Assembly (NCBI GenBank): GCA_030062745.1
Contig: CP099842.1
Coordinates: 9,679,838 to 9,743,837, forward strand
Direction of reading: 5' to 3'
DNA from: Capitulum mitella
Lineage: Eukaryota; Arthropoda; Thecostraca; Pollicipedomorpha; Pollicipedidae
Length of the DNA: 64,000 nucleotides
The notes under the pieces were generated by a model. It worked only from the letters and a program-made list of their open reading frames with translations, made no database searches and had not been told where the DNA came from. Shown piece after piece: positions 11,526 through 43,300 of this stretch. The first letter of the stretch is position 1, and each line of letters opens with the position of its first letter. The position numbers and the translations under genes are program-made.

Positions 11526-14500
11526 GTGAGGGCATGCACAGTGGACGTCGTTTGACACCTAATCGGCACGAGAACCGTGCGTGTGTGATTGTGGCTTTAG
11601 GGCGCTCCGACCACGTGGTCCTACGGCGCCCGCGGCACCAGGGCGGAACGTTGATGTGGAGCTTTATGACTTCTGGAGGAGGTTGTTTGTTAAACCGCCC
11701 GCAGCAGAGGCGCAGCGACCGCACTGTCGCGGTGACGGCTGCAGTGTTCTGTGATGTTATGGACAGGGGAAGTGTGGGCCAACTTCCCTCCCCACGGACT
11801 CCAGTTTCGTCCGTTCGGATGTCACATTTGCATCTGTAGACTGATATCATGGGAGCTCATTTCTGGGACGTCGGTACCGTCGTACCGTGAATTTGCGGCG
11901 TCACCGTCGTAAATGCCGGGGCAGCTCGTATTGGCGCCTCGGCGTGTCGTCCCGCCGTGACGTTGTTACGTTTTGTTCCGGCCGCAGGAACTGGTCGAGG
12001 AGGTGCGCAAGGAGACGTACCAGCGCAAGGAGACCTGCCTGGCCATCAACCTGCTGGTGCAGATGCTGTTCGGAGACCTGGTGCACACGCCGCGCCTGCG
12101 CCACTGGGTCCTGAACAAGATCCACCTGGAGTTCCAGGAGCTGATGGCGCGCACAAGCGTCGGCAAGCTCTTCCACAATATCAGGGTAAGCTGGCCGTGG
12201 CGGCTGTCCAGGTCAGCTGCGTTTTGTCGACAGGGCAGTCTATAAATAGGGGTTTGTCGGTGTAATTTGGAAACGTAGCTAGACTACGATGTATGGTCGC
12301 TTCAGACGGAACCTTGATAATTGACGTTTGGCGTTGCTGTGTGCTGCAAACGAATACATTTTGCATTTGCGACGTCACGTAATTAAGTTCTTTGCAGTGT
12401 GCAGCTGTGCGATTAAAACATCGCAGAATTTCGGGATTCTTGTGGAACACCGGGCATTCGACTCTGGCCGCAAAGCTATTCCCGGTGACGATGTGTTGAT
12501 GCCACTGTCGTATTGTGCGCACATCGATTTTTACCGTGCGTTGTATTCGGCATACCCCTGTTTGGCCAGCATTAATTGACATGATCTGACCTAATCTGAT
12601 CTGCCTCACTGGACCTGCCTTGATCTATCTATGTGTCTTAATCTAATCTGGGCTGAGCCAATCTAACCCAAAAGATTCTTGCCCGACTTTGAGATGTGGG
12701 GCGTTTACATTTCATAATAGACGTGGGCAGGACATGATGCAACCTCTAGCGTCTTTTTTACATAAGTTTGTGACGCTACTAGGGAGTAATTCATCAGAAC
12801 ATTGCAGCTGTTCCTCATCATGCACATTTTGGGCTTCCCGACTTGCTGACCTGCCGTCAGCCGAGTTGACCTGAACGGAACTGCCCTCCGGCAGATCAAC
12901 GAGCTGGATCTGGGCGGCCAGATGCCCGTCTTCAAGAGCGTCACCACGCAGTACGTGTCGCTACACCCGGTCACCCAGACCATCGAGCAGCTGGACCTCA
13001 AACTGGACGTTGAGTACAACGGTGGCCTCAAGCTTAGCATTTTGGCGGACATCGTGCTCAATAGGAAGGGCTTCGTCTTCCTGAAAAGTGAGCTGGGATG
13101 TTGGCCGTGATGTCTGTTTTTTTTCAGGAGACCGTCCATACGTACAGCAGCCGAGGCTTATTGGGTTACATTCGCCCGGATGCTTGTATGGGCCACGTTG
13201 CCCTCCAACCTTGTTCGCCAGCGTAAAGGAAAAACACTGATGCTTTCGTGTTCCTTGTCTCGAGATGAAACGACACCTATTGCTTCTGCCCACGTCGTTC
13301 ATCTAATATGTTTGATTCCGAAAGAGCCTGGTGTCAGTTTCGCTTTGAAATGTTCCATTCGTCTGGTCTTGTGCCATTTCATCTGATTGTTACCATCCGG
13401 GAGCATACGGAGTCCAGCCCGGATGCACTGTCTGGGCTGTTTTACATCCAAGAACAGCCGCGACGAGGCAGGCTCCTTTCCGTCATCGCTTTCCGCCTAG
13501 TCCCCCGTGATGGGGGGATCCCGTCGTGATATGTGTATCCCCTGTGACGGCTGGTTTCCGCTGTGATACGCACGACCCCTCGGTATGTATATATGTATAT
13601 AAGTACGTCTATATATACGTCCCCCTCACAGCGGGGTCTGACCCCGCTGTTATCTGTACGTCCCCTGTGACGGTCGGACCCCTGTCTGATCTGTTCTCTT
13701 CTGACTGTCAGATCCGGCTGTGATATGTACCTCCCCTGTGACGGTCGTCTCCCGCTGTGATCTGCACGTCCCCTGTGACGGTCGTCTCCCGCTGTGATCT
13801 GCACGTCCCCTGTGACGGTCGGTCCCCGCTGTGATCTGCACGTCCCCTGTGACGGTTGGTTCCCGCTGTGATCTGCACGTCCCCTGTGACGGTCGGTCCC
13901 CGCTGTGATCTGCACGTCCCCTGTGACGGTCGGTCCCCGCTGTGATCTGTACGTCCCCTGTGACGGTCGGTCCCCGCTGTGATCTGTACGTCCCCTGTGA
14001 CGGTCGGTCCCCGCTGTGATCTGTACGTCCCCTGTGACGGTCGGTCCCCGCTGTGATCTGTACGTCCCCTGTGACGGTCGGTCCCCGCTGTGACCTGTCC
14101 GCGATCGTGTGTCGACCGTCGCCGTCGCCGGCTCGGACCGGCGCCCTGACGCTGCCGCCCGTTGCCGGCAGTTAACCGGCTGTCGGGCCAGGTTCTGCTG
14201 CGCTTCACGCGGCGGCCTTTCTCGCACTGGGCGTACAGCTTCATCGGCGACCCCACCATCGAGGTGGAGGCCGAGTCGCAGTTCCAGGGCCGGCCGCTGC
14301 CGCGCGTCACGGCCGTCATCGTCCGACAGGTCAGTCGGGGGGGGAGGGGGTCTCTCCGTTGGGCACGGCCCCAGTGCCCCGTGCCTGGTGTCTGTCGGTG
14401 ATTGGTGTGCGGAGATCGCCGGGTGATGTACCGCCGGTCGTGGCAGGCCGTCTGGACTGTTGCCAGGTGGCCAGGGGTGTAGCTACGGCTCAGGCATTTG

Positions 14501-17500
14501 GGGGAGGACGAGCTCACTGCAGTGCTCCAAGAATAGGTAGGGTGGGGGTGAGGTAGAAATCACTTTTTTGTGCGTTGCAGGCCAAACTGCGGTTGAAATG
14601 CCTTTTGTTAAATAACAAAGCTCAAATTGTGTCGCCATTGGGAAATGCCTATTTGATCCCTTAAAAAGTGGGGAAGGGCAAATCACCTTTTCTGGAAACC
14701 TACGGGAGTGCCCCGCAGCCCCCGCTGACATCCGTGCAGGTGCCGGCTGGTTCAGCGCGAGAGGCAGAGAGGACGCGCTTCAGTCGGCCGTGGTCCGCTC
14801 GCCCTGCCTGGCGGCGCGTGCTGTGCATGGCCGGCCGGCCGGCGGACGATTTTCACTATCATGGCGATTTCCGCCCTCTGCCGTCGGACGATTCCCAGCA
14901 GTCCGCCACCTGCAGTCGGGCCGTGCTCTGTCCCCGTCGGCTGACTGTTCTCCGTTGTCCGTCGTGTGACGATTCACCGCCGTACGCCGCAGATAAAGCG
15001 GACGATTCGCAAGCGTCACACGTTGCCCAACTACAAGCTACGCTACAAGCCGTTCTTCACGTCGCGGCTGCAGCAGCTGGTGCCGGACGCGGCGCTGCCC
15101 GAGCTGAGTTCGCTCGGCCAGCTGGAGGTGACCGTGAAGCGGCTGTCGCGGCTGCGACCCAGCGGCCAGCTCTCGCACGTCTATTGCCAGCTCGCCGTCG
15201 GTACGACGCGTGGGGGGGGGGGGAATAGTGTGGTGGATAAGGTGGCAGTTGAAGGCGTGTTTCTGGGTGCTTGGGGTTCGAACGTAAGGTTAAGTGAGGT
15301 TAGTTGCAAGGTTGGTGGAAAAGGCTCTCTTAAATATGTTTCGGTTTGTCCCTTGAGCGCAAGCCATTTTTGTTGCGCTTGATGCAGACTGTTGCGTGCG
15401 GTATGGTAAGCTTAATTTCGCTTATAATGACAGCCGTAAACATTGATTACACATAGTTTATTGCTACTGTCGGACGTCACTGGTCAAGGCTGAACGTTCA
15501 TCCCTGCCCGGTGTCGATCCTAGAACTAGATGTATTTGGCGTGTCGCTTGGACATAAAAGTAGCATGCGCTTGGTGTGCAATAATAAAAAAAAATCCCGT
15601 AAAAACAAGAGCTTGACATCTTCGCCTCGGCTGTCGCGTTTTATTGAGTAGCGTCGTCTGACGTGTGCGGACCACGCGGCGCCTTACTCTTAGCAGCGTC
15701 GCCTGACGTGTCCCGGTCGGCCAGGCGCCGACCCGCTGTTGCTCGACACCTCCCACGTGAGCTGGAGCCGCGAGGAGATCCAGGTGCCGGCACACCCGGG
15801 CCAGGCCGTCGGCCTGCTCGTCAGGGACACCTTCGTCATGGAGAAACAGCGCAACTGCATCACCATCTTCATCGTGGTGCACAACGCGCCCGCCTACAAA
15901 GCCGGCCTCAAAGGTAGCGGTCGGAGGCGACAATGTTTTCGGAATGTGGTGTTGGTGTAGGGGCCGGATTGTGGTATCCTCTGTGTTGTAGTGAGTGCGG
16001 GTTGACGACTTTTCTGTTGCGTATGATTTTCTCCGTGTGGTTGTGTAAGAGAGAATGTACCTTTTTGGCGATCGTGGGCTTTTTGTTTGTTGCGTCTGGC
16101 AGTAATTTCTGTCGGTTTTCACCAATAACTCCGTGTAACAGTGATTTTAAGCTGGTGACGGTTTTGCTGTTCGGTTCATGGGTAGCCTGTTTCTCTGGTT
16201 AGGCCGACAATTGGCGTAACAGTCGGAACAGTGGGGCTAGCTCCGGTGGCCGGAGTAGGTCCGTGTTCTGCGTGTTCGGCGGCGTCTCTGTCTCGGTGAC
16301 TGGTCTCGGTTGGGAGGCGTGTGCAGCCGCCGATGCCGGGGGTCCTCGCGCCTGTGCCGGTGACTGGTCTCTGTGTGGGCGCTGGCGGCCGGCTGGCCGT
16401 GCGGCTTGTGCCGGTGACCGGCCTCCGTGTGGGGCGCCGTGCTGCCGGCCGCCGACGCTGACCGTGCGTTGGTCGGTAGCCGGGGACATTGTGGACGCCG
16501 TGGACGGCGAGGCCGTGCGGGACCTGGCCACCGCCAACCGCCTGTTGCGCCAGCCGGCCAAGGACATCACCGTCACCGTGCTGCGCATGAGCGAGAACAA
16601 GGAGGCCCGGGCCACCGCCGTACGTTGCGGCCGCGCCGCTGACCTGGTAACACTAAAGCTGTGTGGAGGGCTCGGGTGAGGGGCCCGGATCCTGGTCCAG
16701 GGCCTGACGGTGCCTGGGAAATGAGGGCTGTGGTGGAGGTAGGTTTATTCCTAGTTGTGAGCGACAGCCTTCAGGCAATGCGTGTGACTCTTTGCGTTGC
16801 CAGGTGATTAGGTTGATACAGATTTCGTGTTTGTTTTCGAAAGTTCGCTGAGCGTAGCCGCACGGTATAAAGTAGACCTGGGGATGGGTAGCGCAAACTC
16901 ATTCGGTCAGCCGAGTGGTTGGGTGCGTTGCTTTACAATGTCCGCCAGTTCCTTGGGAGTTGTTTTCTGCAGTCACGTGGCAGTTGGAAGGACGGCCAGA
17001 TGCTTACAAATCACACCTCTCCGTGACTGGTCTGCCCGTAACGCCCGTTCGCCGCCGTCTGCCGTCCGTCTGTAGCTGTCCGTCTGTCGCCGTCTGCCGT
17101 CCGTCTGTAGCCGCCTCTGTCTGCCGTCCGTCTGTAGCCGTCCGTCTGTCGCCGTCTGCCGTCCGTCTGTAGCCGCGTCTGTCTGCGGTCCGTCTGTAGC
17201 CGTCCGTCTGTCGCCGTCTGCCGTCCGTCTGTGGCCGTTTCTGTCTGCGGTCCATGTACTGCCGTCGCTGACCGGGCGGGCCGATCCGCAGAAGCGGTCG
17301 TCGGTGAGCGCGCGGCCGCCGGCGCGGCCGCCCGCCTCGCCGGAGCGCCGGCTGCACAGCTCGGCCAGCGAGAGCCTGCTGCTGGACGAGTCGCCGGTGC
17401 GCCGCCGCCGCGGCACCAAGAGCGTCAGCGTGGGCCTGAGCTCAGGTACGGGCGCCGAGCCGGCCTGGGCCGGCTGGGCGCGACTCGGGGCGACGGCGCG

Positions 17501-20500
17501 CGCCGCCGGCCGCGCCGGCCGCCCCCACCTGTGCCGGCCCGAGGCGGCGCACCAGGCGCAAGGTAGGCGCGCCTGGCTCGGCGGGGAGGCCGCATGCCGC
17601 CCGCCCGGAGCGTGAGGCGACTAACGAGGGTCCCGTGCCGACCGAGAGGCGGCAACACTAACGACTGAGGTATGCGTTGTCGAACGGTGCCCGGCACGGA
17701 GAGCGTTCGTCTGTTTTTAGGACGGGCATGCGTGGTTGGCATGTTGAGGCTGGTTAGTTTGTGCACTCCGAGAACGCGAAAAGTTGGCATGGGCCTTTGC
17801 TGGAATTAAAGGGTGTGCGCCTCGTTTTTTATTTTTGTTGTATCAGCTCTGCAGTTACGCAGTTATGCGAACATTCTTCCATTGTCTCACAGCTGTTTTC
17901 CCAAAATCTCAGATGTTCTTTGCCTTGCCATCACATGCACGGGAAGTGGGTTGCGGCACTGAATACCATGAAGCGGCTCACTTGTGGAGCATGTAGGTCC
18001 TGTAGCTGATTTTTCGTCCGGGCGTTGACGGCCGTGGTTTTTCCAGCGGTGGATAGGGAAGACAACAGCTCGGAGGTGAGCCTCCCTGCGGCACTGCACT
18101 GCTGCCTCTCCGACCAAGAGAAAACCACCAAATGGGCACGCTGGAATCAGGTTTGTTTCTCCGAGTCGTGCCGTTAACATGGGTCATGTAAGGCAAGGAG
18201 GTTGGCGAGCGTCACGTTTTGTATGTTGTTTAGTCACCAATGTTTTGCATTGTGCGCGGAAAAGGTGTTCACACTGACGATGTTTACTGCCGCACGATTT
18301 GTGAACGCCAGGATTGTTGATTAGAACCAAGAGAACGGAGCGGGTAGGGCCAAGGCAAAACACCTTTGGCGAACGTTCGCGCGCTTCCGTCTGAAAAAGC
18401 TAAACACTCGTTCGTAGGGAGTTGGCACGCCCTGAGGCCCGTTATGCACGATGGGCTCCTGTGCGACAGGGCCCTGGACTCGGGTGCAGTGCGGGTTTTT
18501 ACCTCAGCTCACCAGTGCTCGGGCGGGCCGCCGTGTGTGCGGCCGCCGCTGTGACCCGATGTTGTCCGCCACGCGCCCGGCAGGACCCGGTGATGAACGA
18601 GACGTTCCAGTTCACGGTGGGCCGGCCCCACCGCTACCTGAACCTGTCCGTGCTGGGCGTGCCGGAGACGGCGCTGGGCGAGCCGACCGCCGAGCCGTGC
18701 CAGCACGTGCTGCTGGGCCGGCTGAGCCTGCCGCTGGCCGAGCTGGTGGCCTGCTGCCGGCTGACGGCCATGGGCCACCACGTGGAGTCGTGCCGCCTCC
18801 TGCCGCCGTCCATTGCCGCCGTCAAGGAGTGAGTGGCGCGGCGCGGCCGGCTGTCTGCACGCCGAGCAGGCGGTGACGTTGGGCGGCGGCAGACGCCCGG
18901 AGGCGCGCCGTGCTGCCGCGATATGTTTGTGCGGGAGGGGAGGGCCGGCCGGAGGCACAGAGTTCAGTCGTCGCTGCCAGATACGCGGCGGACTCTGTCC
19001 CGCAGTCGGGCGATATTTCCACATGTTCTTACATTCCGGAAAAGCTGATGCTACGAATGTATCGGAAATGCCATCCTGTCCGGGTGTCGCGTGGTCTCGT
19101 TTCTTTTTGTTTCTTTGCTATGGCATAAAGCATTCTCTGTCCACTTACTCTGACCGGATCGGCCGCCCGACAGCGTCGACCACGAGCTGTCCGTGTTCAA
19201 CGCGTTCGAGCCGACGTTCTGTTTCGGCGACGTGCTGCTGTCGTTCCTGTGGAGCGCCGGCCCGGCCGAGAACGGCGAGCCGGAGCCGGCCGCCGAAGAG
19301 GACGGCGCCCGCCTCCTGGAGCGCATGGACGTCGACGACTCGGAGCCGGACGACGACGAAGAGCCGCCCGAGATCCGCGTCGGCCACCAGTTCGCCCGGA
19401 TGAAGTTCACCGCCTCGACCGAGTGCGACTTTTGCAAGCGCAAGGTGCGCGTCGTCCGCGGTGTAGTGTCGGCGGGCGGCGCGGGACACTGCGTGGTACG
19501 GCGCGTGGCATTTTAAGTTGGTTTTAAGAGGTTCTGTTATGGAACTGGTGGATTCCGTGGCATTCTGAATGCGGACATTGCTACCGTTCGACAGACACTC
19601 TTAAATTTGACGGTTTTCAATTTTGGATAGGTCACTGAATCTCCCGCCGGCTGGGAATTTTACTATCTTGTGTATTTGTCCTTTTTATTTACTAGTCATG
19701 TTTTTCCATGCTTGGGATTTAGAAATGGAAGCAGTCGTGCTTGGTTTCCTCCGGACGCTATGCGGTCGCGGGTTTCACCTGGCACAGCTGGTTGCGGTGC
19801 CGCAGATCTGGCTGAAGGACGCCTTCCAGTGTTCGGCCTGCCTGATGACTTGTCACAAACGCTGCATCGCCCGCTGCCAGAGTCAGACCACCTGCCAAGT
19901 GAGTGCCTTATCTGCTGCCGAGTCAGAACACGTGAGTACCCTGCTCGCTGTCGAGTCTGACGACGTGCCACGTGAGTATCCTGCCCGGTGCCGAGGCAGA
20001 CCACGTGCCGCATGAGTGCCTTGCCCTCTGGCAGTCAGACCGTCTGCCACGTGAGTACCCTGCCCGCTGTTGAGTCTGACCACGTGTCACGTGAGTGTCC
20101 TGCCGCTGCCAGAATCAGACCACCTGCCACGTGAGTGTCCTGCCCCCCGTAGAGTCAGACCACCTGCCATGTGAATGCCCTGCTCTCTGTCGAGTCAGAT
20201 AGCCTGCCATGTAAATGCCCTGCTCTCTGTCGAGTCAGACCACCTGCCACGTGAATGTCCTGCTCCCTGTCGAGTCAGACCGCCTGCCAGTTGAGTGTCC
20301 GGCTTGCGGCGGCGACGTGGTTGGCCGGCTTGTCCCGATACACTGCATGAGTCCAACGCAGCATCACTCTGGCTGCTCATATGATGGGTTTTGTAAAGAG
20401 CGTTATGTAAAAGGTTAAAAAGGCGTGATTCCTGTCCTGGCCGTGTCTGTTGGGTACTCCCCCTGTCTCGCGCTGTACGATGTGCTGGGGCGGCAGCCGT

Positions 20501-26749: not shown

Positions 26750-28675
26750 CAGTGGCGGCGGATCGTATTTGATCATGGGGGGCAAAGCAAAATTTCGAGG
26801 CCTCTTGATCTTGAGAAGCCCCCTTTCCTAAGACGGGCCATCATCCCCAAAAAAGTCCTTGTTTCACTTAATGGAAGTCGTATTTCGCCCGACCAGGACG
26901 GGTAAGTCCACGATCCAGTCGTGCGTTGTGCGAACTCTGGCATTAACCGGTAAACTCGGCAGGTGCGGCACAGCTTGGTTCCACCGTGAACTCCTGACGT
27001 CCACAGCCAGTCTACATGTCCACATGTCCACATGTCCACATCTCCACTTTTGTTTCAGAACGCCGTTAACTAACCCAACAACCAACCAGACACTTCCGGA
27101 CGGAAGCCGAGGCCCCGAGGCAGGGTCGAGGCAACGATCTGTTGAGAGAATGGACGCAGGCCACCCAGGTCCTTTCTGCGAGGCCCGTAGCAATATTAGA
27201 TTCCCGGTCTCTACGCTGCTTTTAGCTGTAATCTGTATGGGGCCCTCACACGGACAGAAGCCGGGGCCCTTTAGCAGAGCGGGGTTGATTCCGGTTCAGT
27301 GCAGGCCACCCTGATTTATTCTGCGGGGCCCCATAAAAATTCATATTTCCACCAGTCTCTTGGTCACTTTTGAGTAAGATTGTCACAAGGCCCTCTTACG
27401 GACGGGAGCTGGGACACCCTCCAAGATCCGAATGTTGCTTCAACGCACGCATTCCAACTCCATTCTGTGACTTCCTCTAACAATTGTCAGTTCCTGGTCT
27501 CTGGACCCCTTATGAGTATAATCGACAAGAGACCCTCTCTCGAATGTAAGCCTGGGGCTCCCTAACATGGTCCGAACTCTGTCAGAGGCCTGCCGGGTCC
27601 ATTCCGCGAGGCCCCTTAATAGCTGTAAGTTCCTGGTCTCTGGGTCCTTTTTGAGCGTAACTCGCGCAAGGCCCTCTTACGGATGGATGCTCGGGCGCCC
27701 CCGAGACCCAGACTGGTTTAGCGTAGGCCTCCTGGGTCCATTCTATGAGGCCTCTCAAAAAACTATACGTTCCCGGACCCTGTTTTGCTTTTGGGTGATA
27801 ATCGGTATTAGGCCCTATTTCGGACCTAAGCCGGAGCCCCCTAGCAGGGTTCGAACCCCGGTTTAGTGCAGGCCACCCCGGTTCATTACTTCTGTAAGGC
27901 CCCCTGAAAATTGTGAGATCCTGGTCGCTGGACCACCTGTAAGTGTAATCGGTACGAGGTTCTCATTCGGACCTAAGCCGGGGGGCCCCTAGCAAGGTTC
28001 GAACCCTGGTTCAGAGCAGGCTAGCCCTGTCGATGAATTCTGTGAGGCCCTCTGATAATTGTGAGGTCCTGGTCGCTGGACCACCTTTGAGTGTAATCGG
28101 TACGAGGCCCTCTCTCGGACGTCAGCCAGGGCACCCTAACATGGTTCGAACCCCGGTTCAGCGCAGGCCACCCCGGTCCGTTACTTCAGAGGCCCTGAAA
28201 ATTATGAGTCCTGGTCGCTGGATCACCTTTGACTGTAATCACCACCAGGAACTCTATTGGATGGAAGGCGGGTCCCCTAGCAGGGTCCGAACTGTGTGTA
28301 AGGGAGAGTAGGCCAACCGGGTCCATTCCGCGAGGCCCATTAAAAATTGTAGGTTTGCAGTATCTGGTCAATTTTAGACCCAACCTGTTCTAGGCCCCTA
28401 CCGGAAGAAAGCTGAAGCCTCTAACAAAGTAAGACTTGAGAGAACACGCACGCCATGTGCTTACTTCCTTGCCTACATGGTTACATTTCCCTTTCTTTTT
28501 TGTTTTTTTTAGTATGTTCGTCGCTTTTATTCCTATTTCCTTTTCTGTTCAATTTCTTATGAGGCCCCCAAGATCATAAATGGAGGGGGGGGGACAGAAA
28601 CGTAGTCTTGCTCCAGACCCATCGGAATTTGGGGGCAGCTGTCCCCCTGCCCCCCCCCCACTTCCATCGCCCCTG
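26750..28675. mobile_element. 1.9-kb hAT-like non-autonomous DNA transposon
   Basis: The left end reads CAGTGGCGGCGGA and the right end, reverse-complemented, CAGGGGCGATGGA: 10 of 13 positions agree, with the CAG(G/T)GGCG start common in hAT elements. The element is flanked by CATGCGAT (26742-26749) and TATGTGAT (28676-28683), an 8-bp target duplication that differs only by two C-to-T changes. There is no transposase frame. Most of the inside is a tandem repeat. Confidence 0.72.
27080..28435. repeat. diverged ~146-bp tandem satellite inside the hAT-like element
   Basis: About nine monomers share words in order: GTAATCGGTACGAGGCCCTC, CGGACGTAAGCCGGGG, CCTAGCAGGGTTCGAACCCC, GGTTCAGTGCAGGCCACCC and GAGGCCC-TTAAAAATTGT, then TCCTGGTCGCTGGACC. 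The three central monomers (27800-28240) are the most alike; outer ones are eroded. Confidence 0.82.
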
Positions 28676-32924: not shown

Positions 32925-32935
32925 TTAAGGAAGAA

Positions 32936-33020
32936 ACCTAACCCGACCCAACCTAACCTAAGCTAACCTAAGCTAAACTAACCTAACCTAACTGAACCAC
33001 TTCTCTAACCTAACCTAACT
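32936..33020. repeat. degenerate (CCTAA)n telomere-like block
   Basis: About 80 bp of AACCTAACCTAAGCTAACC-type sequence, i.e. the complement of degenerate TTAGG, the arthropod telomere unit. It lies exactly between copy A of the TTAA element and the next hAT MITE. Confidence 0.7.
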
Positions 33021-33899: not shown

Positions 33900-35101
33900 A
33901 TGGGTGATCCAGATCCAGCCGCAAATCCAGACGAATCTGGGGAGAAATCGCACAAGCACAAGGACAAGAAAAAGAAGGAAAAGAAGGAGAAAAAAGAGAA
34001 GAAGAAAAAAGACGATGGCGGAGACGACTCCAAGGAGCACAAGCACAAGAAAGACAAGCATAAGAAACACAAGCACAAGGACAAGGGCGGCGTCATCGGG
34101 GACGACGACGTGGTTGAGGGCGGCGAGGAGGCTCCTGAGCCCGGCAGGAAGGGCACGGAGGAGAGCCGGCGCTACTCGGTCATGGTGCAGGGCACGGAGG
34201 AGCTGGACGGCGGTCCAGGACTTGCGTACATGGCCTACGTGGTGATGGACGACCTGACCGACAAGCTGAAGCTGCTCGATTACGAGCGCGACTTCTGCAA
34301 GTCGCTCAAGATGAAGCCGCTGAATCGGCATTACTTCGTGTTCTCGTTCAACGTGGGCGAGCAGTTTTACATTTTCACGTCGCTGGCGGCCTGGCTCCTG
34401 CGCAAGGCCGGCCGCTCCATGGAGCAGCCGCAGGAGTCGGACGACCCGAACGTCACCGTCTCCACCATCCTGGACCACTGTCGCCAGCTGGAGCTGCGCG
34501 TCGACTTCCCGCCCAGCAAGCTGAAGCAGGGAAGCGGCGAGCAAGTCATCTACGTGGCCGACCGGCTGGCCGACTTGGCCATGAAGGCGGCCAATTTCCA
34601 GTGGAAGAAGCCGATCGTGCCGACCGGCCCCGAGGCCGATGAGGACGAGGACGAGGCCGAGATCACCACGGAGAAGATGGAGGAGGAAATGTCCTCCTCC
34701 TCGTCCGAAGAGGAAGACGAGGGCGCCGTACTGAATCTGGAGGATCTCAAGAACCTGTCCATCCAGGGTCTGGACCTGCAGATGGAAATCCAAAAGCCAG
34801 ACGAAATCCTGGAGTCGACCACCAACACGGAGGAGTGGCGGCTGGAGATGGAGCGCGTGCTGCCGCAGCTGCGCGTGCAGATCGACTCGGACACGCGCGA
34901 CTGGCGCAATCACCTGGACCAAATGCACCAGTACCGCGGCGCCATCGAGGACTCGCTCTCCGACACGCAGGCCCTGCTGGACAAGCTGCACGCGGAGGTC
35001 AGCGGCACCCTGGACAAGATCAGCAACCGTGAGAAGTACTTCAACTCACAGTTGGAGCGCTGCCTGGGCGAATTTAAGTTGGTCGTCGAGGACCGCGACA
35101 G
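33900..35101 (+). CDS. IFT57: IFT57 exon 1 (400 codons plus 2 nt)
   Basis: It ends GACAG|GTGAGC in phase 2. Without splicing, the frame would stop at the TGA inside the donor (35103-35105). The antisense 375-codon frame over it is a composition shadow. Confidence 0.93.
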
Positions 35102-35863
35102 GTGAGCGTCCGACGGCCACAGCCAACCGTCTCAGTCATGAAACGCTGCATTCATCAAGCCTAGTGCCTGGGCGCCGTGAGCACCCAGCCTTATTTCCGG
35201 CTCTCAGGAGCAGAAACAGTACAGGTCTGTGAGCAGCGGCGAGGCAAAGCTCTCCTGACTTCATGTCCGGTGCTCATGGCTCCCAGGAGCAGTAAGCCTG
35301 TGAGCGGCGGCGTGGTGGGCCCTCCTGACCCTGTGTCCGGTGTTTACAGCTCACAGGAGCATTACAAATCTGTGAGCGGCTCTGGTGGACCCTTTGGCCC
35401 TTTGTCCGGTGTTTACAGCTCACAGGAGCATTACAAATCTGTGAGCGGCTCTGGTGGATCCTTTAGCCCTTTGTCTGGTGTTTACGGCTCACAGGAGCAT
35501 TACAAATCTGTGAGCGGCTCTGGTGCGCCCTATGACCCTTTGTCTGGTGTTTACAGCTCGCAGGAGCAGTACAAGTCTGTGAGCGGCGGCGTGGTGGAGC
35601 GCTCCCGACAGCTGGCGCAGCTGACGGACGAGCTGGAGTCGGTGAAGCAGGAGCTGGAGGAGCGCGGCACCAGCATGACCGACGGCACCCCGCTCGTCAA
35701 CATCCGCAAGGCGCTCAACCGGATCAAGCAGGAGGTGCAGGGCATGAACGTGCGCGTCGGCGTGGTGGAGCACACCCTGCTGCAGTACCGGCTGCGGGAC
35801 AAGGAAACGCACCAGCAGGAGGCCAACGTCCAGTACACCTCGGAGAGCATTGGAATGTTCTGA
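33900..35863 (+). CDS. IFT57: IFT57, intraflagellar transport IFT-B subunit (gene span)
   Basis: Exon 1 is 33900-35101 and the terminal exon 35557-35863, giving about 502 residues (human 429). The start ATG sits in GACCATGG. Residues about 10-65 are an unusual Lys/His-rich low-complexity tail. Then comes the conserved N-terminal domain (YERDFCKSLKMKPLNRHYF, GEQFYIFTSLAAWLL, EQPQESDDPN, DFPPSKLK), an acidic stretch, DEILESTTNTEEWRLEMERV and a C-terminal coiled coil ending GVVEHTLLQYRLRDKE. These match human IFT57 closely. The protein joins the IFT-B complex that carries cargo to the tips of cilia and flagella, and the human homologue also binds HIP1. In vertebrates the gene has many introns, whereas only one is seen here. 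Confidence 0.95.
35190..35610 (+). repeat. 69-bp minisatellite that repeats the IFT57 3' splice site and exon start
   Basis: About six units. Four have exact 69-bp spacing with acceptor positions before 35350, 35419, 35488 and 35557; the two upstream units are more diverged. Each unit carries GGTGTTTACAG, then codons for SSQEHYKSVSGSG, so the last unit is the real intron end and exon start. 69 is 23 codons, and the frame is open from 35177 to the stop. The third unit has ACGG in place of ACAG. Confidence 0.93.
35557..35863 (+). CDS. IFT57: IFT57 terminal exon (coiled coil)
   Basis: It starts after GTGTTTACAG; the first base completes a Ser codon from exon 1. SSQEQYKSVSGGVVERSRQL aligns with human ERYQQGNGGVTERTRLL, and MTDGTPLVNI and RVGVVEHTLLQ match the family C-terminus. 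The stop is TGA at 35861-35863. Upstream acceptors in the array would add 23, 46 or 69 residues in frame. Confidence 0.92.
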
Positions 35864-40333: not shown

Positions 40334-43300
40334 GTAAGCGAGCGGACATATAACGAAAAGCTGCATATATCCAGTTAGCGCTGCATGTTTTGATTATGAT
40401 TCAGGTAGCGGGCGATACTTTAAACGCAGAATAGTTGTTATGTTGCGATTGCTGTAAGAGCAGAGATTTTCCCATGGTGCAGAAGGAGCTCCGCCAAAGG
40501 AAATGAGTGAGACATCCGGAAATAAACCAGTGCTGGTATAGGGAATGTACGCATGCGTGGAACTAAAGAGTACATGAGGATGCAGATGCATCTCGATATT
40601 TGCAAAAAAGTCGATATGACTATGACGCTTTATGAAAAGAATGGACCTCAGAATGGCATATGATGATCCCATGAATTATGAGAAAGTTTCACCCATGAAA
40701 ACGCGTACCATTTAACTGCATCAACCACAACGGAAGTACTTAACTTCGTGGCATTCGTCAGTTTTAGACCCATCAGTGGGGTGACGCCAAACGTCCGCTT
40801 AAAACTATCTATACATCCTGACTCATGACGTTGGCTTTGAAGGTCGGTGCTTTGATCCATGACTAACTTGCGGAATATTTCGAACATGCACGGCCTTCCA
40901 ACGAAAGCAAAGCTGTCTCAGCCGGGACCCGCAAGCACGGCGGAAGCGGGGCAGTAAAACGAACGAACGGCGACTCTGGTCCCAATCTCTCGCTCCTCTA
41001 CGGAGTCAGGCCGTTTCTGCGGTTCCTAGGCGCCGTTAGCCGTTTGGATCTCTGCGCAGAGAATTTCCAGTTATTTCCATGAGCGTATCGAACGGCACTG
41101 GATCACTGCATGCCATCAAAGGAGGTCGGCCTCTGTCGGAGCGCGCGGTCGTCACCTTCTGACGGGGTCACCCAGCCGGCAGTCGAGGCGCAGTCACTAC
41201 AGGACGAACCTGGAGGAGCTGACCGATGACCAGATCCTGGCCAGGATCGCCCAGAGGAGGCAGGAGCGCGCTCTGCTGAAGGCGCTCCGGAACGAGTACG
41301 GCTGCTCTGAACACTCGGCACTATGCACCGGCACGGAGTCTGCTGTGCTAGCAGAACTCAAATCTTGGAAATGAAAACTCACAGCACCTTTGCCCTTTTA
41401 CTCTTCCGAAAAGTTCCTGCGATTCCCTGAAAAAGAATGCTACTGCTCAAAGCATGTTTTACTGATGAAACCACTTCATTTACTTTCTTCATGGCCGCTT
41501 TAAAACGGGCTAACAAGGTCATGCAGACATTATCGCATAGAACGATTTCCAGCTGTGCGTGTGTCTGAATTGTACAATTGCCAAGAGAAATAGCTATTAA
41601 AAGTTTGAGATGATAGTCAGAGCTGCTCACATCAGGTCAGGGTGTTTATTATAATTGTGGCTAAATGTCACTTGGTATCTGTTTATGTTCCGTTGCGTAC
41701 GTCCATGTCCGTGTTATAGCCGACCTCTGTGTCAATACCGCAGCAGTTGTTCGTTTCTGTACCGGAGCCAGCGTTTGTAGTGTAACTGGCGTCTCTGTAC
41801 CCGAGCCGGTGTGTGTTTGCCTGGAGCCTGGGATGTTGTACATCTCCCTACCGGAGCCTGAGGTGTTGTCTGTCTCTGCACCGGAGCCTGAGGTGTCTGT
41901 CTCTGTTCTGGAGCCTGGCGTGTTGTCTGTCTCTGCACCGGAACCTGAGGTGTTGTCTGTCTCTGCACCGGAGCCTGAGGTGTCTGTCTCTGTTCTGGAG
42001 CCTGGCGTGTTGTCTGTCTCTGCACCGGAACCTGAGGTGTTGTCTGTCTCTGCACCGGAGCCTGAGGTGTTGTCTGTCTCTGCACCGGAGCCTGAGGTGT
42101 TGTCCGTCTCTGCACCGGAGCCTGAGGTGTTGTCTGTCTCTGCACCGGAGCCTGAGGTGTCTGTCTCTGCACCGGAGCCTGGGGTGTTGTCTGTCTCTGC
42201 ACCGGAGCCTGAGGTGTTGTCTGTCTCTGCACCGGAGCCTGAGGTGTTGTCTGTCTCTGCACCGGAGCCTGAGGTGTTGTCCGTCTCTGCACCGGAGCCT
42301 GAGGTGTTGTCTGTCTCTGCACCGGAGCCTGAGGTGTTGTCTGTCTCTGCACCGGAGCCTGAGGTGTTGTCCGTCTCTGCACCGGAGCCTGAGGTGTTGT
42401 CTGTCTCTGCACCGGAGTCTGAGGTGTTGTCTGTCTCTGCACCGGACCCTGAGGTGTCTGTCTCTGCACCGGAGCCTGGGGTGTTGTCTGTCTCTGCACC
42501 GGAGCCTGGGGTGTTGTCTGTCTCTGCATCGGAGCCTGACGTGCTGTCTGTCTCTGCTCCGGAGCCTGAACTGCAGTCCGTCCATACGCTGGCCCCGGTA
42601 TTCGTGTGTATGCCGGAGTCGGCCTCTGTGCCGGCTGTGTAGTACGGTCTGTACGCTGGCCCCGGTGTCCGTATATATGCCGGAGCCGGCTTCTGTGCCG
42701 GCTGTGTAGTGCGGTCTGTGCGCTGGCCCGGCGTCCGTGTGTTTTTCGGAGCCGGCCTCTGTGCCGGCTCTGCAGTACGGCCGCCGGCGGCGGTCCGGTC
42801 GGCTCGGGCCGTCCGGCCGTCGGCGGGGCGGCTGCGGCAGCTCGCTCTGCGCTGACCCCAGGGGCGCGGCCGGCGCGGCGGAATGGGGCCGCACGGCCGG
42901 CCCGGAATGCGCCGGCGCCGACAGAAATAGCGGCGGCGGCGGCGCGCCGGCCGACTCCGCGCGTCCGCTCGGCGCCGAGGCCGGCAGCGCGGCGCCCTGG
43001 CGGAGGACCGCCGAAGCCGAGCCGACCGCAGAGGTGTACACGCCAGCTGAGCCGCACGCTCCGGCCGGCGCCTGGTGCTGGGGACGGCACTGGTGCCGAG
43101 CTGCGCACTCTGTAGTCCGAGTCGCACCTGATAGTGGGCAGCGCACTGCGCATTCCATGTACTGGGCAGCGTCACTGCGCGCCAAACGGCACTGTGCACG
43201 TGCATATCGCAGCGAGCGCTGGCTCGGGCCGCCTGTAGTGCACCTAATTGCAGAGTCCGCACCAGACTGCGCACCGTTCTTGACTGTGCTCATAACGCTG

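Follow-up and report, generated by a model that had tools for sequence, protein, structure and literature searches.

Tandem copies of an exon–intron boundary make up most of an IFT57 intron and probably form a non-coding, mirage-type minisatellite

Mirages, known from lancelets, are tandem duplications of exon–intron boundaries that have been described in the BflGb6, BflGb9 and Adh3 genes, with similar repeats in PGBD5 and troponin C (PMC3087553, PMC3902484). The BflGb6 mirage spans the intron's 3′ end together with the 5′ portion of exon 2, that of BflGb9 the 3′ boundary of exon 2, and, in the sections of the two reports considered here, copy number varies between haplotypes and the authors conclude that the repeats seemingly leave regular splicing undisturbed (PMC3087553, PMC3902484). 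In a limited literature search, covering titles and the openings of abstracts, we found no report of mirages outside lancelets. Here we describe an array at the last exon boundary of a cilium gene, IFT57, encoded in a 64,000-nt stretch of DNA (the window), and a related array in a paralogue of that gene. We consider the IFT57 array probably a mirage-type non-coding boundary minisatellite that undergoes turnover and whose copies are normally spliced out, a reading supported by the undisturbed splicing reported for the same class of repeat in lancelets (PMC3087553, PMC3902484).

The coding part of the IFT57 gene extends on the plus strand from an ATG at 33900 to a stop at 35861–35863 and is interrupted by a single intron of 455 nt (35102–35556). 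The gene had been named as IFT57 in the earlier note, an identity borne out by Pfam (PF10498, E 1.7e-134), with 360 positions of the model matched by 360 residues. Coding exon 1 (33900–35101), delimited by its open reading frame and the Pfam match, ends in GAC AG and is followed by the donor GTGAGC, which scores 9.45 (15 neighbouring donors span 4.4–11.3). As the frame of exon 1 meets a TGA directly past this donor, removal of the intron is obligatory. The terminal coding exon (35557–35863), whose acceptor restores the conserved protein length, is the source copy of the repeat.

Within the intron there are five copies of the start of the terminal exon, each behind a 3′ splice site or its remnant. 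Their exon-derived parts start at 35201, 35280, 35350, 35419 and 35488, with spacings of 79, 70, 69, 69 and 69 nt from 5′ to 3′ up to the authentic exon at 35557, and 356 of the 455 intron nucleotides lie from 35201 onward, in agreement with the earlier description of an intron largely built by copying its own 3′ splice site together with the exon start. That description had also counted four exact 69-bp steps; the tandem array stands, with three steps of 69 nt between copies that are not exact, and the two more diverged units placed upstream are indeed there, as older copies at 35201 and 35280 (steps of 79 and 70 nt). TRF reports a period of 69, 4.2 copies and 90% matches, and the 121-nt copies share 96% and 91% identity with the first copy. 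When the 30-nt exon start is compared with the intron, its best score is 24 against a maximum of 14 in 300 dinucleotide shuffles, which rules out a chance origin of the copies. The 30-nt 5′ exon edge scores 7 (shuffle mean 7.7), and we rejected the idea that the intron was born by duplication of both of its boundaries.

A young unit consists of a 37-nt exon-derived part and a 32-nt spacer ending in a 3′ splice site, and the intron's authentic 3′ end (35525–35556) serves as the spacer of the third young copy. The older units resemble the exon over a longer stretch (80% identity across 50 nt at 35210); translated from their boundaries, they read SSQEQKQYRSVSSGEAKLS and SSQEQ, each up to a stop, and are out of the exon frame. 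In the window gene and in the paralogue alike, the tandem units of intron end and exon edge adjoin the authentic boundary. Short tandem arrays are readily misassembled and the copy number comes from a single assembly, but the copies differ from one another, the older ones are diverged and a related array lies at a second locus, and we regard an assembly artefact as extremely unlikely.

Contrary to the earlier description, not every unit carries an acceptor. The AG is kept before 35350, 35419 and 35557, and GG stands before the oldest copy (35201–35279, preceded by CCGG and out of frame), the second old copy (35280–35349, preceded by ATGG and with a TAA in the exon frame) and young copy 3 (35488–35556, preceded by TTTACGG). 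AG thereby survives in two of the five window copies and two of the three paralogue copies, that is, in many but not all, as in lancelet mirages; its loss from the remainder (three of five and one of three), together with the broken frame of the older window copies, argues for the mirage-type reading. A branch-point-like TGAC lies 21–24 nt upstream of 35280, 35350 and 35557; none precedes 35201, and the motif is altered to TGGC before young copy 2 (35419–35487) and to TAGC before young copy 3. In the form CTGAC at −22 it occurs for 35280 and 35350 only, 35557 having ATGAC, and young copy 1 (35350–35418), with its TTTACAG acceptor, is the sole upstream copy in which both AG and CTGAC are intact.

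We scored acceptors with a matrix built on 15 introns of the adjacent gene, which we take to be PDZD8-like and name accordingly. Both 35350 and 35419 score 2.47 and 35557 scores 1.77, whereas the 15 real acceptors of the PDZD8-like gene, scored leave-one-out, range from −4.0 to 15.0, the next value above the minimum being 3.0, and a YTNAY match is found at −45 to −15 in 12 of these 15 introns. All three IFT57 acceptors are rather weak, and 35557 does not stand out by the strength of its signals; we therefore dropped the argument that 35557 is the strongest of them. By its score and branch-point match, 35350 appears to be a credible acceptor, and the fact that it outscores 35557 and has CTGAC where 35557 has ATGAC counts against the mirage-type reading. 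Nor do we claim that selection silenced the upstream copies: four of the five lack AG or TGAC, yet 35350 and the first paralogue copy (P1) keep both.

The arithmetic of the upstream acceptors given in the earlier note holds, in that use of 35350 would add 69 residues and use of 35419 would add 46, with the frame kept. Functional alternative acceptors at these two positions would yield a longer IFT57 with a flexible, Gly/Ser-rich insert in its coiled coil, and such use would draw on an intact and higher-scoring 35350 with CTGAC at −22, on the AG of 35419 and on a frame that is open from 35350 to the stop. The conserved length of the protein speaks for the last acceptor instead. Two PDB entries matched at E 0.001 or better, 8ruy and 8bd7 (both chain M), and the product of joining 35101 to 35557 aligns to their IFT57 with no gap between residues 305 and 492, junction included; this restored length argues for the mirage-type reading. 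We take the IFT57 of these structures to be from Chlamydomonas and the junction region to be coiled coil. Through 35350, 69 residues would be inserted into a region that is gap-free to this distant relative, with 18 Gly or Pro in the 70 residues translated, and none of the possible increments (23, 46 and 69 residues) is a multiple of 7, which likewise weighs against functional alternative acceptors. Judging from the sequence, splicing probably joins 35101 to 35557 as a rule, with the copies discarded and not made into protein, and an isoform with 69 extra residues through 35350 is possible; functional use of the upstream acceptors seems to us improbable.

An open frame through the whole array had been noted. 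The frame is in fact open from 35165 to the IFT57 stop, although the two older units within it are out of the exon frame. We simulated units in which the 37-nt exon start was joined to 32 nt picked at random from intron sequence of this neighbourhood, ending in CAG, and in 72% of 20,000 draws the exon frame stayed open through three identical 69-nt copies. Because the period is divisible by three and the last three copies are young, an open frame follows, which is thus little remarkable and largely automatic at period 69. Between successive young copies, ten pairwise differences are distributed 5:3:2 over codon positions 1:2:3 (they fall in 8 variable columns, so that some sites are counted twice); although the numbers are small, this argues against coding constraint, under which mostly third-position changes would be expected. 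The simulated frequency and the codon pattern both favour the mirage-type reading, and the latter, with third positions accounting for only 2 of the 10 differences, also speaks against functional alternative acceptors.

The same data bear on where the intron ends. If its true end were 35349, the three young copies would be coding repeats present in every transcript, and the intact 35350 does divide the array precisely into frame-broken copies upstream and in-frame copies downstream. However, this would place 69 extra residues in a conserved region, where neither the paralogue (with its last acceptor) nor the solved relative has them, and there is no surplus of third-position differences. We rejected a coding repeat in all transcripts on the conserved length and the codon-position pattern, and consider an intron end at 35349 very unlikely. 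Harder to reconcile with the mirage-type reading is the distribution of the variable sites among the three young copies, with none of 37 columns variable in the exon-derived part compared to 8 of 32 in the spacer (Fisher p 0.0013; small numbers). Uniform neutral drift does not predict an invariant exon-derived part, and local gene conversion or some constraint could lie behind it; the identity of these parts is also a point in favour of functional alternative acceptors.

Searching the genome from which the window comes (477 Mb in 16 contigs) with the array at the DNA level and with the protein, where all six candidates were scored and two exon matches were obtained for each of two genes, we found one further IFT57 gene, on the minus strand of contig C5. 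It has an intact ORF, with 365 of 499 alignment columns identical (a 73% identical protein), and differs from the window gene at 31 of 159 fourfold sites. Its single intron of 1251 nt, bounded on the minus strand of C5 by the donor at 22877147 and the last acceptor at 22875895, with candidate acceptors at 22876114 and 22875968, has the same position and phase, and at its 3′ end carries a boundary array of three copies (P1–P3) with a period of 73 nt. All three have an in-frame TAA (STQEQ from the boundary and then the stop), so that the C5 copies cannot lengthen the protein. AA replaces AG in one of the three; P1 retains both AG (score 0.91) and CTGAC at −22, P3 retains AG (2.44) without CTGAC, and the last C5 acceptor scores 2.14. 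As use of P1 or P3 would truncate the protein, productive splicing of the C5 gene should use the last acceptor. An array at the same boundary with period 73 and a TAA in every copy supports the mirage-type reading and weighs against functional alternative acceptors. The earlier note had named copies in related species that do not come in multiples of three as evidence against its functional idea; the 73-nt period and the TAA of each copy come close to this, in a related gene rather than in a related species.

In both IFT57 genes, exon-like sequence runs down to TGAC and is then followed by CCYGTGTCCGGT before an acceptor (read by eye); CCYGTGTCCGGT is diverged in the last spacer of the window array, and the TGAC-CCYGTGTCCGGT fusion is absent from the exon. 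Given this common breakpoint, the array appears to have started before the two genes separated, its first duplication being older than their split. The two arrays might instead have arisen independently at the same boundary, with no common ancestor. Young copies group by gene, at distances of 0.08–0.14 among those of the window and 0.04 between P1 and P2, compared to 0.26–0.56 for intronic copies between genes (for the older copies, these values come from a rough automatic alignment), but this grouping would equally be given by concerted evolution. P1 and P2 lie 0.07 and 0.10 from their own exon, outside the arrays the two introns are alignable over their first 17 nt only, and intron 12 of the PDZD8-like gene shows that such arrays arise elsewhere, all of which would suit separate origins. 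The shared breakpoint speaks against them, as does the older window copy at 35280, which is nearer to P1 and P2 (0.26 and 0.27) than to the young window copies (0.31–0.37). On balance, we find an independent origin unlikely. Distance from the exon rises along the C5 intron (0.07 for P1, 0.10 for P2 and 0.29 for the outermost copy; P3 is 0.21–0.22 from P1 and P2), and in the window array (0.24, 0.24, 0.26, 0.23 and 0.35) it rises at the outermost copy only. A tblastn search with the first part of the PDZD8-like protein gave no match at E 0.001 in the 210 kb around the C5 paralogue, so the duplication did not visibly include PDZD8.

In the mechanism we propose, a segment across the intron-3′/exon-5′ boundary of IFT57 would have been duplicated in tandem, after which unequal exchange or slippage would have driven turnover of the array, anchored at its end by the exon edge, a copy held fixed through selection. 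A more far-reaching version, to which we give little credence, would make that edge a permanent master copy that re-seeds 3′ splice sites in an array outlasting gene duplication, with stop-free 69-nt copies that let 35350 add 69 residues to some of the IFT57 produced.

A mirror-image array in the neighbouring gene, which matches PDZ and MMM1 above the Pfam cut-offs and C1 just below, copies the other side of an intron. The end of the exon encoding the C1-like domain (19806–19898, plus strand; exon model and Pfam) is repeated downstream, in intron 12 (19899–20304), as copies of about 40 nt composed of exon end and 5′ splice site (GAGTCAGACCACCTGCCACGTGAGTG). TRF places this array at 19929–20304 (period 40, 9.4 copies), and the exon-edge score is 25 against a shuffle maximum of 15. 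Eight copy donors match GTRART, five of which, with CACGTGAGT, score 6.52 compared to 7.53 for the real donor; by length, their use would keep the frame in three of the eight and lose it in five. A DNA search of its own genome, with very common words skipped, found no relatives of this array other than itself. Such a period-40 donor array is a further argument for the mirage-type reading of the IFT57 array.

Across the 16 introns of the window, clear exon copies are present at 2 of 32 edges (0 of 300 shuffles reach the score), with one marginal edge on the 3′ side of PDZD8-like intron 4 (3 of 300 shuffles). Elsewhere, in 12 stretches of kinase genes picked by hand from neighbouring match pairs in a list of 138, none of 24 edges showed exon copies (lowest 13 of 200 shuffles); exon ends were taken as the ends of profile matches, without a splice-site check, and in two stretches (L035 and L036) both matches lie in one open frame and the intron is doubtful, which leaves 0 of 20 edges in 10 stretches. 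Arrays of this kind are uncommon in this small survey, which counts against the mirage-type reading.

The window contains other repeats. In the PDZD8-like gene, a 37-nt minisatellite (13635–14098, 12.6 copies) lies in intron 3 and is separated by 73 nt from the next exon, and a 62-nt minisatellite in intron 7 (17050–17253), which stops 38 nt short of the exon, repeats an acceptor-like TCTGTAG; the edge-copy test found no exon copy in either. Within 41823–42780, 24 copies of a 30-nt unit give way to a 67-nt array; both strands carry long open frames there, and the three frames tested gave no Pfam match. At 27790–28240, a 148-nt unit is present in about 3 copies, and the preceding sequence resembles diverged relatives of it. 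A degenerate AACCT repeat, which we take to be the arthropod-type telomere motif, is located inside the chromosome at 32935–33019. Pfam detected no family at E 0.01 in ten other ORFs of the window, and neither Rfam (gathering scores) nor ARAGORN returned a match in it.

The structure of the IFT57 array is thus confirmed, whereas the function first attached to it, a coiled-coil hinge whose length is tuned by copy number and acceptor choice, is unsupported, in view of the length restored by the last acceptor, the stops and 73-nt period of the paralogue, the period-40 PDZD8-like array, the expected open frame and the codon pattern. If the mirage-type reading is true, boundary-copying minisatellites also occur outside lancelets, can form at either end of an intron and can persist through gene duplication. 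They would place spare splice sites beside conserved exons, from which alternative exons or new introns could arise, and offer a natural test of how the spliceosome chooses among near-identical acceptors, for which the two IFT57 genes, one with copies in frame and the other with stops, would be a matched pair.

Like the lancelet mirages, as far as the sections considered describe them, the IFT57 and PDZD8-like arrays are tandem units across an exon–intron boundary that come in a 3′ and a 5′ kind and in which AG or GT is retained by many of the copies, though not by all; unlike them, they are found in a host that is apparently no lancelet, and in two paralogues with related arrays. Human introns described by Zhuo et al. 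in 2007 reportedly derive from tandem arrays whose repeats supply both ends of the new intron; if so, they share with the IFT57 array tandem repeats that carry splice signals, and differ in that the 5′ exon edge is uncopied in the IFT57 intron. Internal tandem repeats modify human genes in segmental duplications, where, as here, minisatellites alter gene structure, often in frame; that work concerns variation between paralogues in exons and introns, and boundary-copying units are not described in the section of it considered here (PMC2812944). A further comparison is with Drosophila introns gained through tandem exon duplication, where, according to the part of the report considered, exon sequence becomes intron after a tandem duplication, as in IFT57 (PMC2891723). 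Unlike in those gains, no new intron position arises in IFT57: a pre-existing intron grows at its 3′ end.
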